A stretch of DNA of 34,155 bases, from the NCBI GenBank assembly GCA_002868905.1, contig PKUA01000048.1, forward strand, positions 48,795-82,949. Direction: 5' to 3'. Below, one piece after another: positions 6,500 through 31,908 of this stretch. This DNA comes from Desulfuromonas sp. Its GTDB lineage: Bacteria; Desulfobacterota; Desulfuromonadia; Desulfuromonadales; Geothermobacteraceae. The notes under the pieces were generated by a model, which worked only from the letters and a program-made list of their open reading frames with translations, did not search any database and was not told where the DNA came from. A program made the translations under genes and the position numbers. How positions within the stretch are numbered: position 1 is the first letter of the stretch; each line of letters begins with the position of its first letter.

Positions 6500-7125
6500 T
6501 TCAGGATGTCGGGACGGTGGCCGACGTACGTCGTTCCGGGCGCGGCATGCAGCTCGGAGTGACGACCGCTTTCCCGATTGAAGAGCTGGAGCTCGGCGAA
6601 AGTATTGCCGTGAACGGTGTCTGCCTGACCGTGGTCGAGCTTGGCCAGGGCCGTTTCGATGTCGATGTCTCTCCTGAAACCGTCGAACGGAGTACCATCG
6701 GAGCCTTGCACCACGGCGACCGGGTGAATCTTGAACGGGCTCTCAGGCTTTGCGACCGCCTCGGGGGGCACCTGGTCAGCGGTCACATCGACGGAACCGG
6801 GCAAGTGTCCGATCGGCGCAGTGACGGTAATGCCGAGAGGTTTACCATTACGGTGCCCCCGTCATTGCTCAGATACATGGTCGACAAAGGCTCGGTGGCG
6901 CTGGATGGCATCAGTCTCACGGTCAACAAGGTTGATACAGACTCCTTCTCGGTCGCCATTATTCCCCATTCGCTGGCCCATACCACGTTGAACAATCTTT
7001 CGGTCGGGAGTCGGATTAATATCGAAGCCGACCTGCTGGCCAAGTATGTTGAAAAGCTACTGAAACCGGGAGATCAAACCGATGGCGTGGACCTGGAGAT
7101 GCTTGCCAAGCACGGGTTTCTGTGA
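6484..7125 (+). CDS. ribE: riboflavin synthase, alpha chain
   Basis: This enzyme dismutates two molecules of 6,7-dimethyl-8-ribityllumazine to riboflavin, the last step of the pathway. The 213-residue protein begins with the diagnostic MFTGLIQ and contains two tandem lumazine-binding repeats (about residues 1-97 and 98-195), each with a GDRVN / DGISLTV-type core. ATG 6484 lies inside the end of ribD and uses AAGGGG in ribD as its ribosome site, so ribD and ribE are translationally coupled. It is named ribE here; some naming schemes call it ribC. Confidence 0.96.
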   Translation: MFTGLIQDVGTVADVRRSGRGMQLGVTTAFPIEELELGESIAVNGVCLTVVELGQGRFDVDVSPETVERSTIGALHHGDRVNLERALRLCDRLGGHLVSGHIDGTGQVSDRRSDGNAERFTITVPPSLLRYMVDKGSVALDGISLTVNKVDTDSFSVAIIPHSLAHTTLNNLSVGSRINIEADLLAKYVEKLLKPGDQTDGVDLEMLAKHGFL

Positions 7126-7152
7126 GATAGTTCCGCTTTTCAGGAGTATTGA

Positions 7153-8358
7153 ATGCCGATAAGTAAAGTTGAAGCAGCACTCGAAGATATCCGTAACGGT
7201 AAAATGGTAATCCTGGTTGATGACGAGGACCGGGAGAATGAGGGAGACCTCGCCATGGCCGCGGAAATGATCACCCCCGAAGCGATCAATTTCATGGCGA
7301 TGCATGGCCGTGGCCTGATCTGCCTCTCATTGACCGAGGATCGGGCCGATTATCTCGATTTACCGTTGATGGTCCAGGACAATACATCCTCCTTCGGGAC
7401 CGCTTTCACCATCTCCATCGAGGCACGCAAAGGCGTGACGACCGGTATCTCTGCCGCCGATCGCGCCCAGACCGTCCGCGTGGCGATTGCCGATGAAACG
7501 ACCGCGCACGATCTGGCTCGGCCGGGGCATATTTTTCCGCTGCGGGCCAAGCGGGGTGGCGTGATGGTCAGGGCAGGGCAGACCGAAGGATCGGTCGACC
7601 TGGCACGCCTGGCCGGATTGAAACCGGCCGGCGTCATCTGCGAGATCATGAATGATGACGGGACCATGGCCCGCATGCCGCAATTGCGGGAGTTTTCCGA
7701 ACAGCACGATTTGAAAATCGTAACGATCGAGGACCTGGTCGCTTACCGTATGCGCAAGGAGTTGCTGGTTCACCGCGCCGCCGAAACCTCCCTTCCGACT
7801 CAGTACGGCGGAGAGTTCAGGGCCATCGCGTACGATAACGATGTCGACAACCAGAACCACCTCGCCCTGGTTTTCGGTGAGATCGATCCCGAAAAGCCGC
7901 TTCTGGTCAGGGTGCATTCCGAATGCCTGACGGGTGACGTGTTCGGGTCACAGCGCTGCGATTGCGGAGACCAACTGCATTCGGCCATGGCCCAGATTCA
8001 GCGTGAAGGGCAGGGGGTTATCCTTTATATGCGTCAGGAAGGTCGGGGTATCGGCCTGATCAACAAGCTGAAAGCGTACGCTCTGCAGGATGAAGGCTGC
8101 GATACAGTCGAGGCCAACGAAATGCTCGGCTTCAAGGCCGACCTGAGGGACTATGGCATCGGAGCGCAGATCCTCTCCGAGCTCGGTGTCAGGCAGATTC
8201 GCCTGATGACCAATAATCCAAAAAAAATCGTTGGCCTTGAAGGGTATGGATTGACAATCGTCGAACGTGTCCCCATCGAGGTCGAAGCCACCGGAGAAAA
8301 TTTGAAATACCTGAAGGCAAAGCGGGAAAAGATGGGACACCTGCTGGAAAATCTTTAA
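7153..8358 (+). CDS. ribBA: bifunctional DHBP synthase / GTP cyclohydrolase II
   Basis: This fused protein feeds both arms of riboflavin synthesis: the N-terminal half makes 3,4-dihydroxy-2-butanone 4-phosphate from ribulose 5-phosphate and the C-terminal half opens the GTP ring. The 401 residues match the usual fusion length. The first domain (about 1-200) shows [11 protein letters not shown] at 23-33, [10 protein letters not shown] and [12 protein letters not shown]. The second (about 205-401) has the zinc cysteines Cys258, Cys269 and Cys271 in [17 protein letters not shown] and the RQEGRGIGL and DYGIGAQIL motifs. Both halves keep their key residues, so both should be active. It lies between ribE and ribH. 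Confidence 0.96.
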
Positions 8359-8378
8359 CCCGTCACAGGGAGACTGCC

Positions 8379-8843
8379 ATGAGCCAAATTATAGAAGGGA
8401 AACTCGACGCCACAGGGTTGAAGGTCGCCATCGTGGTGAGCCGCTTCAATTCATTTATCGGCGACCGGTTGACGGAGGGAGCCAAAGACGCCCTGGTCCG
8501 GCACGGTGCCGATCTTGCCGATATCGTCGAGGTGAAAGTTCCTGGAGCGTTTGAAATTCCCCTCGCCGCCAAAAAGGTTGTGTCGAGTGGAAAGTATGAT
8601 GCCGTTGTCTGTCTCGGCGCGGTTATTCGAGGCTCCACCCCGCATTTCGATTATGTCAGCTCCGAGGTGTCCAAGGGGATCTCTTCGGTCAGCCTCGACA
8701 GCGGAGTCCCACTTACGTTCGGGGTTCTGACGACGGACACTCTTGAGCAGGCGATCGAGCGTGCCGGTTCCAAGGCCGGTAACAAGGGAGCTGAAGCAGC
8801 TGTCGGCGCCATTGAGATGGCCAACCTCCTGCGTCAACTTTAA
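8379..8843 (+). CDS. ribH: 6,7-dimethyl-8-ribityllumazine synthase
   Basis: Lumazine synthase condenses the butanone phosphate and the ribitylaminouracil made by the two RibBA arms and RibD. It usually assembles as pentamers or 60-mer capsids. The 154-residue protein has the family length and the motifs [38 protein letters not shown] (with the catalytic His) and [12 protein letters not shown]. The start at ATG 8379 has AGGGAGA upstream. It lies 20 bases after ribBA and is followed by nusB. Confidence 0.97.
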
Positions 8844-22735: not shown

Positions 22736-23143
22736 GTGAACATGAAATTTGCTTTCGGTGGATTGTTGGCTGCCGGCGTCCTGCTGTCTGGTTGTGCAGG
22801 CATAACCGGCAAGGATATCGGCCAAAATGACGTACAGATTTGCAAGGCCGGCATCTCGACTGTCATGAAACGCAAACCGGCCCATTTGGCTGTGAAAGAC
22901 CAAGATAAACAAGCTGTTTACCTTGCCATTGTTGAGAACGGAGTTGAACAGAAGTGGGGGTACAAATGCCGAGTCGAAGGGGACAGGGTTGTCTGGGGCG
23001 CCGAGAACGGGCGGTGGATGACCGACCGAAAGGATGCCACTGTAACTTATAAGGTCGAGGGGGATACTTTGACTGTCATGCAGATGTTTTACCAGGGAGG
23101 GCGACGGGTGAAAACTTTTTCTCTGGAAGGCTTGGGGAAGTGA
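22736..23143 (+). CDS. small lipoprotein of unknown function
   Basis: The 135-residue product has a clear lipoprotein signal: a short basic start, a hydrophobic stretch and LLSGC with Cys20 as the lipidated residue. The mature 116 residues contain a conserved-looking Cys pair (ICKAG and YKCRVEG), which could form a disulfide, and a beta-rich C-terminal half (GDRVVWGAENGRWMTD, VTYKVEGDTLTVMQ). No enzyme motif is visible. GTG 22736 is preferred because GGAGG ends 5 bases before it; ATG 22742 would shorten it by two residues. It has its own promoter and stands alone between amrS and the AT-rich acyltransferase. I do not recognise the family. Confidence 0.75.
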   Translation: MNMKFAFGGLLAAGVLLSGCAGITGKDIGQNDVQICKAGISTVMKRKPAHLAVKDQDKQAVYLAIVENGVEQKWGYKCRVEGDRVVWGAENGRWMTDRKDATVTYKVEGDTLTVMQMFYQGGRRVKTFSLEGLGK

Positions 23144-23351
23144 GGAGAGATGTTTCCGTAAAGCAGCATTGATTATTTTTTAGTTGCAAAAGTAAGTTTG
23201 AGGGAAAACCAGGAAATCTTTCACGGTAAATTGATGAGTTCAGATGGCCTAGACGTTCAAGCATACAATTAATATCTTGGCGATCAATAAATTCAAGACA
23301 CCATATTTTATCATGGAACTGTAAGAAGTAAAAAGTAGGATTCTTATATTG

Positions 23352-25433
23352 CTAGCGATATAGTATCGTGGGATCAAATCTTTTAGAAAACCTGAGCTCT
23401 CCTGAGCTTGAAAAATGATCTCCGTCCGACCAGTATTTGTCTTCACAAGTCATAAAGTCTTCTGGAAAACTAAAGTTAAATAATTTGTTTTGTGAGATAA
23501 AATCAAAATTTTTCTCTTTTACGCTGTTTAAAATGTAGTTGTCCAGTCTTTCAAAAACCTTTTTTTGATCTTTTCTTAGGTGGAAAGGGTAAGAACATTT
23601 GTGTTTCAAAATGGTACTTTCAAGAATGTGTGGCTCTAATCTTGGGCCAAACCATATAACGTTCGTGTAATTACTTAAATCGTTAAGATATTCAACGACT
23701 GAATTTACGTGGTCAACATCCGTTTTTATGCCTTGAACATTGTCCAGGTAAGGAATTTCTGTAAACATTTTACGTGATCCTTTTTGACCACTATTCTTCA
23801 TTAATAAAAATAGCCCTGCCTGCTCATAAATGACAGAGGAGAAAATGGATTTGTTTTCAGCAATGAAATCCCTAAACCTTTCGTAGTGACATTTAGGGTT
23901 AGGGGTGTGCGGACGACAGTGGCCTTGGGCCACTCCTACAATAAAGGGCGCATCAACCCTGTGTATTACAATGCTGTAAAGGTCGATGGCGTGACTGTCA
24001 CCAATGACTGCAAGACCCGGCCCGAAATTTTCATAGCATGTTTTTATTCTTTTTTCGATATTTGGGTCGAGATTCGTTATGTTAAAGCGACAAATTCCAT
24101 TATCCTGTCCTCCGTTTATGTCAATTCCGTATCGAGTCGACTTGATCAGGTTGTAGGTTTTAACAAGTTCGTTATCTTCATTTTTTAACCAATATTTTTC
24201 AAAACCATCAGTAAAATGACCCGCCAGACCTAGTGAGGCAAAGAATATTGAAAACGTAAAGGATAAATAGAATATTCGTTTTCTTGAAAATAGATTTTTG
24301 TTTCTGAAAGGGTTTTCAATAAATTTCCAACTTAAATAACCGCAAAGAATTGATACGATTGAGAGCAATAATAATAAATTTGTTCCAGTTTCCGGGAAAA
24401 AACGATGCCTTGCAAAGGCAAAAACAGACTGATGCCACAAGTAGGTGCTGTAACTGATTAGACCCATGCCCACTAGTGGTTTGAGGCCAAGGAGTCGACC
24501 GACAATTGTTTCGGATGTCGAGAACAGTATTATAAGGCCGGTTCCGACGGTCGGGATCAGTGCATACAGGCTCGGGAAAGGTGTGTTTTCATCAAACGTT
24601 ATAATTGAATATGTAATCAGCAACAACCCGATTATCCCAAACAGTTCACTTATGGTTTTCCGCGTTTTGATCAGTTCGGCATGGTCCTGCATGTAGAGAA
24701 AGTAAAAAGCGATAAGAGCGCCAATTACGAGTTCCCAACCACGTGTTGGCAGCAGGAAAAAGGTTGCATAAGGCTCTTCGTACGCGCCCCAATGAGCCAT
24801 GGCTAGGCTGACAGCACCAATAAGCAGTAAAGAATACAAAGTCCAACGTTTGCGGAATCCCCCAAGCATCATTAAAAACAGGGGGAACAAAAGGTAATAT
24901 TGCTCTTCAACCGCCAAGCTCCATGTGTGGATGAGCGGTTTCAATTCTGACGTGACACCAAAATATCCGCTCTCACGCCAAAACAGAAAATTTGAAGAGA
25001 ATACCGATACGGCCGCGAGGCTCTCGCTGAAGTCTTTGATGTGGGTTGGAAGCAACCAGATCCAGGCAAAGGGGAGGCAGCACAACATGACAAAGAAGAG
25101 CGCCGGCAAAATACGTCGTGCTCTTCTTTCATAAAATTCCAGTATAGAGAACTTCTGGTTGTTCATGTCGGTGAGAATTATGGTGGTAATCAGGTAGCCG
25201 CTGATTACGAAAAATACATCCACGCCGATGAATCCACCCTTGAATTGTTCAAATCCAGCATGGAAAAAAATAACAGGCAGAACAGCAACTGCACGAAGCC
25301 CATCAATTTCTCTGCGATACTTCAATGGTTTCTCCCAATCAATTCGGTAGGGGGTAAGGCGTTTTGGGGACATCTTCATTGCACAAAGCAGTGGGTTCCA
25401 TCCCAAGCCGAACCCCATGGAGGAAATTAGCAT
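23352..25433 (-). CDS. O-acyltransferase with C-terminal SGNH domain (OafA/OatA-like)
   Basis: This membrane enzyme probably acetylates or otherwise acylates a cell-surface sugar such as O-antigen, exopolysaccharide or peptidoglycan. The 693-residue protein has an acyltransferase-3 domain (about residues 38-395, ten or so membrane helices) with the RxxxxxxxxxxH element ending at His58 in LRAVAVLPVIFFHAG and SWSLAVEEQYY-type segments. The C-terminal SGNH esterase-like domain has nucleophile Ser480 in VIGDSHA and the Asp670-x-x-His673 pair in DGDHF. The gene is much richer in A+T than its neighbours and stands alone, suggesting acquisition. The start is uncertain: no good ribosome site precedes ATG 25433, 25418, 25379 or 25373. 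The acceptor sugar is unknown. Confidence 0.88.
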   Translation of the reverse strand: MLISSMGFGLGWNPLLCAMKMSPKRLTPYRIDWEKPLKYRREIDGLRAVAVLPVIFFHAGFEQFKGGFIGVDVFFVISGYLITTIILTDMNNQKFSILEFYERRARRILPALFFVMLCCLPFAWIWLLPTHIKDFSESLAAVSVFSSNFLFWRESGYFGVTSELKPLIHTWSLAVEEQYYLLFPLFLMMLGGFRKRWTLYSLLLIGAVSLAMAHWGAYEEPYATFFLLPTRGWELVIGALIAFYFLYMQDHAELIKTRKTISELFGIIGLLLITYSIITFDENTPFPSLYALIPTVGTGLIILFSTSETIVGRLLGLKPLVGMGLISYSTYLWHQSVFAFARHRFFPETGTNLLLLLSIVSILCGYLSWKFIENPFRNKNLFSRKRIFYLSFTFSIFFASLGLAGHFTDGFEKYWLKNEDNELVKTYNLIKSTRYGIDINGGQDNGICRFNITNLDPNIEKRIKTCYENFGPGLAVIGDSHAIDLYSIVIHRVDAPFIVGVAQGHCRPHTPNPKCHYERFRDFIAENKSIFSSVIYEQAGLFLLMKNSGQKGSRKMFTEIPYLDNVQGIKTDVDHVNSVVEYLNDLSNYTNVIWFGPRLEPHILESTILKHKCSYPFHLRKDQKKVFERLDNYILNSVKEKNFDFISQNKLFNFSFPEDFMTCEDKYWSDGDHFSSSGELRFSKRFDPTILYR

Positions 25434-25499
25434 CCATCAAATTGAGACTCAAGGGAGTTATGTAAGGGGGATGTTTCAGATAAATATTTTAACAGCGCT

Positions 25500-25524
25500 T
25501 TTGAATTGCCGAATTCAATTCAAA
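25500..25524. repeat. 9-bp inverted repeat upstream of the acyltransferase
   Basis: TTTGAATTG and CAATTCAAA are perfect inverted arms around a 7-base spacer. The dyad covers the -35 position for the - strand TAAAAT -10, so it could be a regulator binding site. Related ATTCAATT words follow at 25530-25570. Confidence 0.5.
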
Positions 25525-25616
25525 GAATATTCAATTTGGAGGGTGTTGGGAAAGCATTGAAAATTGAATGAGGGTTTGGCTTGAAGGGTATAAAATACGA
25601 GAGTCCCAAACACATA

Positions 25617-25636
25617 GGGGTCAGGTCTCAACAATC
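25617..25636 (+). repeat. sequence resembling a REP-associated transposase boundary (remnant)
   Basis: GGGGTCAGGTCTCAACAATC resembles the word commonly seen at the ends of REP-associated tyrosine transposase (IS200-like) genes in proteobacteria. No transposase gene is present here, so at most this is a remnant. The resemblance is from memory and is not verified by a search. Confidence 0.35.
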
Positions 25637-25835
25637 AACGAAATGAGTCGAATGATTCACTGATTTCATTGGGGGGGAGATGGCGCGAAGTGTGGATGTC
25701 AATGAACGGTAATCGACGCTTATGGACTAACGAAGGGGGGTCTTTCGTTGGCATTTTGTAAGTTGTGAGGTGCTTAAGGGCAGTATTGTAGAGGGTTTAT
25801 GGAATTTTTTGTACGCTACTGGACGGTATTAGACA

Positions 25836-25865
25836 TAAAAAAAGCCCCCGAAAAATCGGAAGCTT
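25836..25865 (-). terminator. intrinsic terminator of tRNA-Leu
   Basis: On the - strand AAGCTTCCGA pairs with TCGGGGGCTT (two T-G wobbles) around a TTTT loop, followed by seven T residues. It lies 11 bases after the tRNA CCA end. Confidence 0.9.
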
Positions 25866-25875
25866 TCTTATCAAA

Positions 25876-25962
25876 TGGTGCCGAAGGCGAGACTCGAACT
25901 CGCACGTCCTTTCGAACACACGCCCCTCAAGCGTGCGTGTCTACCAATTCCACCACTTCGGC
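25876..25962 (-). tRNA. tRNA-Leu (anticodon GAG)
   Basis: The reverse complement is an 87-nt type II tRNA with a long variable arm and encoded CCA. The acceptor stem GCCGAAG / CTTCGGC pairs perfectly, the anticodon stem CACGC/GCGTG encloses TTGAGGG (anticodon GAG), and the T arm carries GAGTTCGAGTC. The discriminator base is A, as required for leucine. It reads CUC and CUU codons. It has its own promoter and terminator, so it need not depend on the glycolytic operon upstream. Confidence 0.97.
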
Positions 25963-28517: not shown

Positions 28518-29573
<1,056 letters not shown>

Positions 29574-29596
29574 TTAGCCATAATGGTCTGTCGGGG

Positions 29597-29625
29597 ATGA
29601 TAGCCCATCGTTATCAGGGGGTCAA
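29597..29625 (-). promoter_or_regulatory. promoter of the gap-pgk-tpiA operon
   Basis: On the - strand TTGACC (29620-29625, 5 of 6) and TATCAT (29597-29602, 5 of 6) are separated by 17 bases. The expected start is near 29590, giving a leader of about 70 bases. Confidence 0.75.
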
Positions 29626-29847
29626 GCTGTCACGACAGGTAACAAGCCCAAGAACAACGGTTGCCGCAAGGTAGATGATGTGGTAAAAGGAGCGAACTTA
29701 ATCCATGTAGGTTATTGTTGTATTGGAACGTCCCTGCTCGGGTATTGTTTCCATACTAAATTCATCCCCTGAAAACGGTAATATCAAATCTTTGGACACC
29801 TGAAGAGGAATGATTTTGCCGACCTATTTATGGCGCTTTAAGCTAAC
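29626..29847. other. noncoding gap between the gap promoter and the histidine kinase
   Basis: Together with the gap leader this makes a 328-base stretch without a gene. This part must hold the promoter of the kinase, but I find no pair of hexamers with good spacing. An isolated TAATAT lies near 29780. No ORF or stable hairpin stands out. Confidence 0.4.
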
Positions 29848-31908
29848 ATGAAAATCACCCTGCAGAAGCGCATTCTCTTGTTCTCGCTGCTGACTTTGAC
29901 GCTGACGATCGGTGTCAATACCGGTTTCGATATCGAAACTTTCCGGCGCGACTACCGTGACAGCATCATTCTGCGCTGCAAAACTCTTGCAGAGGGGTTA
30001 AAACTCTCCATCGAAAATGTCCTGGCCCTTGGCCTGCCTCTCCCCGGACTGGAGGGAGTCGACGAACGCTGTAAGGGGCTGGTCGCTACCGATCCCGAGA
30101 TCGCCTACTGCCTGGTTGAGGATTCCAAAGGGAAGCCTCTTTATGCGAGTAATCCCGAATACGCCTACAGTAACGTAATCGAACTTGTCACTTCTTTGAA
30201 CGAGTTGACGACGCTTGTCGTCTTTAAACCAAACCAGAGCGCATTTTACGACGTTGCCCTGAACCTCCATGCTGCCGACGGTCGCTTGGCTGGGCGTATT
30301 CATATCGGATTTTCAGAAGATGTCCTCAGCGGCAGAGTCACAGGGATCCTGCAACGATCTGTTCTGGTATTGATCATCGGCTTTTCCGTGGTTTTCGGTT
30401 TGATCTTTCTCTTTTCGAGACATTACCTGGTTTTGCCGATTAAACGACTTCAGGACATGGCACAGAAGATTGCCGAAGGTGAATTCCAGGTCGAGGTCCC
30501 GGAGCTCTCTTCTCGGGAGTTTTCCGAACTTGGCGGTGCCCTGCGGGAGATGGCGATCAGCCTTGAAGAGAGAGATCGGAAAATTAAGGAAGGATATCGC
30601 GATCTGAGACGGGCCAACGAGGAATTGCAGAGTTCCCACGTGGACCTGGAGAACATTGGTGGAGAGCTCGGTCGAAGCCGCGAGATGTACCGTTCTTTGA
30701 TGGAGGATGCGTCCGATGCGATTCTGGTTTCGGATGAAGAAGACCGAATCGTCTTGTTGAACAAGGTCTGCGAGCCCTTTTTCGGCATTGCCCGCGATGA
30801 AGTGGTCGGGAATAACCTGTTCAGTTTTTTCGAAAAGTTGCAGGTTGAAGAGATCGAATCCCTCTACGATCTCCACCAGGCTGTGTTGAAGGGGGAGTCC
30901 CAGGAGACCGAGTTCCGCTTTGTTCGGAAATCGGATGGCGTACCCACCATCGGCTGGTTGAGGGCATCAGCGGTCACCGGCGGTGACGGCAAGCGGAACG
31001 TTCAGTCGATTGTTCGCGATGTAACCCAGGAACACGAGGTTCTGGAAAATCTTGAGCAGAGCGCTCAGGAGTTGAAGCGTCTTAACCTGATGAAGGACAG
31101 CTTTCTCGGAGTTGCCTCCCATGAGCTCAAAACCCCGTTAACCGTTATTCTCGGCTATACCGAACTGTTGACGACCGAGTGGAACGATACTATCAGCCCG
31201 GAAATGGCCGGTATCGTCAAGCACATCTCTTCTTCCGCTGAGCGACTTTCCACGATTGTACGGGATATGGTCGACGTTTCGATGCTGGAGTACAAGCGTC
31301 TCCAGATGCAGAAAACTCCCGGCGATCTTAACTCTCTTGTTCATAACGCCATCGGTGAACTGCAATATTTTTTCCACAGGAGAAACCAGAAGATCTCGTT
31401 GCAACTGGAAGAGGGCCTCCCGCTGTTGTTATGTGACGGTGAACGGATTGAGCAGATCATTGGCAATCTGGTCGGCAACGCCGTCAAGTTTACGCCGGAC
31501 GGCGGCACTATCACCGTCACGACCCGATCACGCCGTTCCTGTCGGGTGCCGCATATCCCGAGTCACGACGGTCGGTCCGATCTGGAGCCGGTCGATACGG
31601 ATCAATATGGTTATGTGGAACTTGTTGTTGCAGACAACGGCATCGGAATCGATCCGGTCGACCAGCTGAATGTTTTCGACAAATTTTACGAGATCGGCAA
31701 TATCGAGGAACATTTTACCGGTAAATCCGCATTCAAGGGGAAGGGGACCGGTCTCGGCCTGACCATCGTCAGGGGAATTACCCAGATGCATGGAGGGGAG
31801 ATCTGGGTCGAGAGCCCGGGATTTAATCCCGCAGGCGGAACCGGCGCCAGTTTCCATGTCCTGCTGCCGGTCGATTTTGATGAGGCCGGGGAATTGAACA
31901 TCGTTTGA
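29848..31908 (+). CDS. membrane sensor histidine kinase (HAMP-PAS-HisKA-HATPase)
   Basis: The 686-residue protein is a two-component sensor. Order of parts: membrane helix at about 8-24, periplasmic sensor domain of about 145 residues, membrane helix at about 172-193, HAMP (about 196-248), PAS (about 276-390), HisKA with phospho-acceptor His425 in ASHELKTP, and HATPase with N box NLVGNAVKF (about 539), ADNGIGID (about 595) and GKGTGLGL (about 631). A charged insert (RRSCRVPHIPSHDGRSD) lies between the N box and the G1 box. No response regulator is in the window, so the partner is elsewhere. The ribosome site is weak. Signal unknown. Confidence 0.92.
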   Translation: MKITLQKRILLFSLLTLTLTIGVNTGFDIETFRRDYRDSIILRCKTLAEGLKLSIENVLALGLPLPGLEGVDERCKGLVATDPEIAYCLVEDSKGKPLYASNPEYAYSNVIELVTSLNELTTLVVFKPNQSAFYDVALNLHAADGRLAGRIHIGFSEDVLSGRVTGILQRSVLVLIIGFSVVFGLIFLFSRHYLVLPIKRLQDMAQKIAEGEFQVEVPELSSREFSELGGALREMAISLEERDRKIKEGYRDLRRANEELQSSHVDLENIGGELGRSREMYRSLMEDASDAILVSDEEDRIVLLNKVCEPFFGIARDEVVGNNLFSFFEKLQVEEIESLYDLHQAVLKGESQETEFRFVRKSDGVPTIGWLRASAVTGGDGKRNVQSIVRDVTQEHEVLENLEQSAQELKRLNLMKDSFLGVASHELKTPLTVILGYTELLTTEWNDTISPEMAGIVKHISSSAERLSTIVRDMVDVSMLEYKRLQMQKTPGDLNSLVHNAIGELQYFFHRRNQKISLQLEEGLPLLLCDGERIEQIIGNLVGNAVKFTPDGGTITVTTRSRRSCRVPHIPSHDGRSDLEPVDTDQYGYVELVVADNGIGIDPVDQLNVFDKFYEIGNIEEHFTGKSAFKGKGTGLGLTIVRGITQMHGGEIWVESPGFNPAGGTGASFHVLLPVDFDEAGELNIV

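Follow-up and report, generated by a model that had tools for sequence, protein, structure and literature searches.

A probably acquired AT3-SGNH acyltransferase gene with signs of composite ancestry in a Desulfuromonas genome

The window analysed here is the whole stretch of 34,155 nucleotides taken from the genome of Desulfuromonas sp., and it contains an AT-rich island at 23144-25875. With a probability that we put at roughly three in four, this island is a laterally acquired single-gene cargo, namely a gene for an AT3-SGNH surface-glycan O-acyltransferase whose ancestry appears composite, with a widespread membrane part joined to a rarer head from another lineage. We regard it as an acquired OafA-like surface-glycan O-acyltransferase that is ordinary in kind.

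The AT-rich island and its gene product

The original prediction of a sharp change in base composition at about 23150, with a return after 25870, agreed with the GC profile of the window, in which values of about 0.50-0.57 gave way to 0.33-0.47 between these positions and then rose again to 0.54-0.59. The G+C content of 23144-25875 was 40.6%, in comparison to 56.7% across a 373 kb sample of the genome to which it belongs. None of the 693 comparison windows was as AT-rich (1% quantile 48.7%), which should be read as a rank rather than a probability, since these windows overlap. They were 2732 bp each and came from 21 stretches of the genome totalling 373 kb, most of them the initial 20 kb of a contig, and from the rest of the window. 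The expected change in codon use was also present: the third-position GC content (GC3) of the acyltransferase gene was 0.41, whereas that of 21 other genes in the window was 0.56-0.74 and that of a further one, gap, was 0.676. The membrane proteins rodA, mrdA and mreD had GC3 values of 0.59-0.64 and were thus not AT-rich, which rules out the membrane nature of the enzyme as the cause of its AT-richness. A second, smaller GC dip (0.458) was seen at 29500-29999 of the window, between gap and a histidine kinase gene. The features of the island and its edge are as follows.

23144-23351, no strand: AT-rich left flank, 33.7% GC.
23352-25325, minus strand: AT3-SGNH O-acyltransferase gene of 657 amino acids from TTG 25325, assigned from PF01757, the starts of homologues and a GGGAG motif.
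23352-24209, minus strand: predicted periplasmic SGNH head, residues 373-657, with the triad S443/D633/H636, placed by alignment with 6se1; its best sequence match is a Roseibium plasmid protein.
24210-25325, minus strand: residues 1-372, the predicted membrane (AT3) part including the eleventh helix, which aligns with HGSNAT and shares 60-67% identity with six homologues from the order.
24432-24436, no strand: approximate GC3 break point at codon 298, from a permutation test.
25326-25875, no strand: AT-rich right flank in which a convincing gene is absent, from the list of open reading frames and GC.
25617-25628, plus strand: 12-base motif, in relatives often near Y1 (REP-associated) transposase genes, present as a single copy in this genome.
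25876-25962, minus strand: tRNA-Leu(GAG), long established beside secG, from the position of the tRNA and the loci of relatives.

The acyltransferase gene is the one long gene of the island, and the roughly 550 bp between it and the tRNA contain nothing that convincingly resembles a gene. Its open reading frame was listed as 23352-25433, beginning at ATG 25433. However, the true start is very probably TTG 25325, because the homologues start at the same residue and GGGAG is located six bases ahead of the TTG. Promoter- and terminator-like sites were no more numerous than in shuffled sequences.

Judged from sequence and a structure model, the protein is of the AT3-SGNH O-acyltransferase kind represented by OafA and OafB; this assignment relies on the PF01757 domain, the alignments to HGSNAT and the OafB head, and the conserved OafA positions. 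The PF01757 (Acyl_transf_3) membrane domain was recognised at E 1.5e-28 (100.3 bits, cut-off 31). Mutants of OafA have identified the essential AT3 residues as R/K-X10-H, GG-F/Y-XGV-D, RXXR and a Glu after TMH10, according to the part of PMC7448272 available to us. The corresponding positions of the window protein, matched by eye, were invariant or present (R10/H21, G29-G30-F-I-G33-V34-D35, R66/R69 and R67/R70, E336), and OafA-essential positions were retained in both of its domains. In the head, the Ser-Asp-His triad S443, D633 and H636 (numbered from the TTG) was invariant in all six aligned proteins. Of the surface-sugar O-acyltransferase with a complete SGNH triad that had been predicted, the sole long gene, its acyltransferase nature and the triad were borne out, whereas no Gly and Asn blocks like those of classical SGNH enzymes were spotted in the head by eye. 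OafA and OafB likewise lack these blocks, as far as extracts of the same source describe them (PMC7448272).

The predicted structure was of moderate confidence (mean pLDDT 65.3), and a Foldseek search with the model found nothing at or below E 0.001. When hits were realigned, the nine best rows were all HGSNAT, covering model residues 1-337 or so at Z 13.3-14.8, a range also attainable by chance for helical bundles. The tenth row was the OafB periplasmic domain 6se1 (residues 399-656, Z 11.7, rmsd 4.1, 207 residues aligned), the best among SGNH folds and ahead of many SGNH esterases at Z 9-11. Thus, the window protein shares its two-domain layout with the Salmonella O-antigen acetyltransferases OafA and OafB, and its essential positions with OafA. 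However, its head is different, and a sequence search against solved chains gave no match up to E 1. The membrane part would move an acyl group through the inner membrane, probably the acetyl group of cytoplasmic acetyl-CoA, and the head on the periplasmic side would use its triad to place the group onto an exported glycan, e.g., O-antigen or another surface polysaccharide.

Distribution and genomic setting

The acyltransferase protein was absent from all four genomes of the same family, one of which is 84% complete, and at E up to 1e-3 a match was found in only 18 of the 136 genomes of the order, its own included. Together with the composition, this distribution sustains the original prediction that a surface-sugar O-acyltransferase had been acquired, and we consider the lateral acquisition of the gene well supported. 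In the order, 11 of the 12 homologues measured had a lower GC content than their surroundings, with differences of 0.011 to 0.258, and one had not; for ten homologues outside the order the GC content was lower than around the gene in six, equal in one and higher in three. The six nearest homologues had differing neighbourhoods, which comprised a pair of genes for purine synthesis, genes for transport or for polysaccharides, or transposases (named by eye from the first residues). An AT-rich acyltransferase gene placed at differing locations is a recurrent theme in the order. One of these homologues, in genome G016, is interrupted (locus L090, 7010-8515): residues 9-68 match at 7010-7189 and the remainder from 8515 on, and the open reading frame between the halves (7332-8498) is transposase-like by eye.

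The same data bear on the possibility that this is an old gene of the lineage which was lost from the sampled family members and whose composition is unusual for functional reasons. The nearest membrane parts do occur in the same order, and most homologues of the order are also AT-rich. However, the gene is patchily distributed, the neighbourhoods differ among the loci looked at, the membrane proteins of the host are not AT-rich, and the head is unlike the heads of the order (see below), so that we consider an old lineage gene unlikely.

The DNA on the two sides of the island belongs to two conserved blocks. On the right, all 12 loci compared from relatives had the genes secG, tpiA, pgk and gap in one group, and in ten of these tRNA-Leu(GAG) adjoined secG; in one of the other two the contig ends near secG. 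The content downstream of the tRNA differed from relative to relative. On the left, a run of mre, mrdA and rodA genes followed by amrS was present in all three same-family loci, with a rodA-amrS spacing of about 3.3 kb in two of them. In all eight genomes where the best matches to amrS and secG lay on one contig, the two genes were more than 470 kb apart, which means that, of all genomes compared, this one alone has the junction holding the island. In the family genomes that lack the acyltransferase, amrS and secG are likewise unlinked. The acyltransferase gene lies where the mre-rodA-amrS block and the tRNA-Leu-secG-tpiA-pgk-gap block, far apart in relatives, adjoin. To the left of the island, at 22736-23143 of the window, lies a small lipoprotein-like open reading frame with an LSGC lipobox (by eye), which had no Pfam or NCBIfam match and matched only its own genome among 58.

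Such an adjacency of amrS and secG, seen only here, in an assembly of 84 contigs, could also indicate a chimeric contig or a contaminating stretch. We hold this to be extremely improbable, as the GC3 is host-like on both flanks, amrS and secG each have a single match in the genome, the contamination is given as 0.29% and the contig is 83 kb long.

One edge of the island is a tRNA gene, as had been predicted, and the AT-rich stretch starts right at the tRNA 3' end, as would be expected of an integrase element that inserted at the 3' end of tRNA-Leu and has since been reduced to one gene. However, the proposed use of the tRNA as an insertion site was not supported: the tRNA adjoins secG in 10 of 12 relatives' loci that carry no such island, the island contains no integrase, and a tRNA was found at none of eight homologue loci. 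A search of the window for the tRNA-Leu 3' end that tolerated up to 3 mismatches returned just the tRNA itself and no duplicate. We therefore reject integration at the tRNA as very unlikely, and on present evidence the tRNA at the island edge is coincidental. The repeats flanking the island, direct as well as inverted, were short, no further copies of the island were found in its own genome, and the flanking DNA gave one 32-base match to another locus, within the same genome (E 0.097). Arrival was probably by recombination or an unknown vehicle, rather than by an integrase at the tRNA.

The 12-base motif in the right flank was considered as a possible trace of such a vehicle. In 39 genomes the 12-mer was enriched (80 places, in comparison to 11 for the reversed pattern), and at least 23 of the 80 places had a Y1 transposase no more than 1.5 kb away, the 22 transposase places used for these distances having been chosen by eye as near the motif or in this genome. 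However, the motif is single in its own genome, the three Y1 genes of that genome are all on contigs other than that of the island, and related 9-mers were not enriched around eight homologue genes (5 versus 4 in controls). For these reasons, REP/RAYT mobilisation was rejected as a shared vehicle; the 12-mer is possibly the scar of a Y1 (REP-associated) element. As an after-the-fact observation, both of the Y1 matches found in genome G018 (C107:34590-34922 and C135:42581-42901) lie about 2.3 kb and 0.3 kb from AT3-SGNH genes, and the gene beside the C135 match has 30.4% GC in comparison to 56.1% around it.

Conflicting ancestry of the membrane part and the head

The two parts of the protein point to different relatives. 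Of 19 homologues collected, 14 were used for the GC3 tests (L100, L065, L072, L101 and L066 were left out); with four homologues added later, 18 and the window protein entered the block identities, the trees and the rankings of the separate halves. When the window protein was compared with five near relatives in blocks of 40 residues, identity was 0.45-0.88 up to residue 360 and 0.04-0.36 from residue 361, a drop that falls close to where the eleventh helix ends. In OafB, this helix ends at residue 367 and a structured extension begins at 377, as stated in the portion of PMC9833829 available to us. In OafA and OafB the structured extension is reported to confer acceptor specificity, in the portion of PMC7448272 likewise available.

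Ranked by the membrane part, six members of the order came first (60-67% identity), and the protein of the Roseibium aggregatum plasmid NZ_CP045621.1 was 12th of 18 (47%). Ranked by the head, the Roseibium protein came first (76.6 bits; 25.9% identity over most of the head, E 2e-11) and was the closest head found. The AT3-SGNH proteins of the six order members (G497, G437, G520, G016, G502 and G018) are AT-rich relative to their surroundings, but their heads reached at best 28.9 bits (G502), the others being at chance level. The G502 protein shows the same inversion, as its head gave 206 and 197 bits with Roseobacter plasmid proteins and at most 55.5 bits with members of the order. Heads and membrane parts did not always disagree: three pairs with similar membrane parts had similar heads (membrane/head identities 0.72/0.56, 0.74/0.75 and 0.71/0.44), whereas three others had dissimilar ones (0.71/0.21, 0.65/0.19 and 0.60/0.10).

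The head alone matched no other genome among the 395 sampled from the phylum; this sample included only seven other genomes of the same order (G010, G030, G017, G033, G412 and the family members aside), and the nearest order homologues were compared for the head only in the set of 18. Among plasmid records the head had one match, that in Roseibium. The comparison with phage records bears on the idea that the gene is the leftover of a temperate phage carrying a serotype-converting acetylase. Matches were found in 67 phage records, the best being Pseudomonas phages (44-49% identity over the membrane part), and the acetylase gene of phage PAJU2 is also AT-richer than its surroundings. However, the head matched none of 50,697 phage records at E up to 0.01, a scan of viral contigs revealed no relative (six short peptides only), and no adjacent phage gene was seen by eye, which makes a phage remnant quite unlikely.

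The trees displayed the same conflict. In the AT3 tree of 19 proteins, the seven order members, whose choice was based on membrane-part matches and preceded inspection of the head tree, formed one side of a branch (80/95.7, not starred). The head tree rejected this grouping (log-likelihood 90.8 lower, p-AU 8.8e-5) and paired the window protein with Roseibium (96/98), but the heads align poorly and several branches of this tree are long. The AT3 tree did not reject the pairing of the window protein with Roseibium (p 0.144) or that of G502 with Roseobacter (p 0.07). A head that is closer to a protein with a more distant membrane part is explained by exchange, but not by fast divergence of the head alone. 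Comparison of the sequences thus makes head exchange likely, although unproven, both for the group and for this gene, with a membrane part that groups with homologues of the same order and a head that would have come from another lineage. In the open-licence papers searched, we found no report of head exchange.

The composition inside the gene offers a further hint of heterogeneity. The GC3 fell from 0.50 to 0.34 at codon 298, a break that was first spotted by eye and was afterwards put to a permutation test that left its position free, with a count of 3 of 2000; taken over 25 genes, this result is modest. None of the 14 homologues and none of ten host genes gave a value under 0.01 in the same test (lowest 34/2000), and in three of the four added homologues the GC3 shifted in the same direction (direction only, without permutation). 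The break lies about 65-75 codons ahead of the identity drop and is thus not simply the join of the head; it may represent another exchange or partial amelioration.

Implications for surface-sugar modification

The acylation of surface sugars alters how a cell looks to phages and immune systems. In the part of PMC9558356 available to us, phage-borne O-antigen acetylation is stated to be able to block superinfection, and oafA and oafB are also located away from the O-antigen cluster. From what is known of relatives, the acyltransferase gene could plausibly affect antigenicity or sensitivity to phages.

What most deserves to be followed up is the modular ancestry. The odds seem to us even that the AT3-SGNH acyltransferases of this order are two-part machines, in which a conserved membrane engine recurrently receives new periplasmic heads, the join lying close to the eleventh helix's end and immediately in front of the extension with the reported role in acceptor specificity. 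If heads are indeed exchanged independently, the membrane domain, which is better conserved and dominates annotation, would not allow the acceptor to be predicted, and the natural head variants would be material from which to learn what sets acceptor choice. In that case, a lineage could alter which of its surface sugars is modified via the swap of half a gene.
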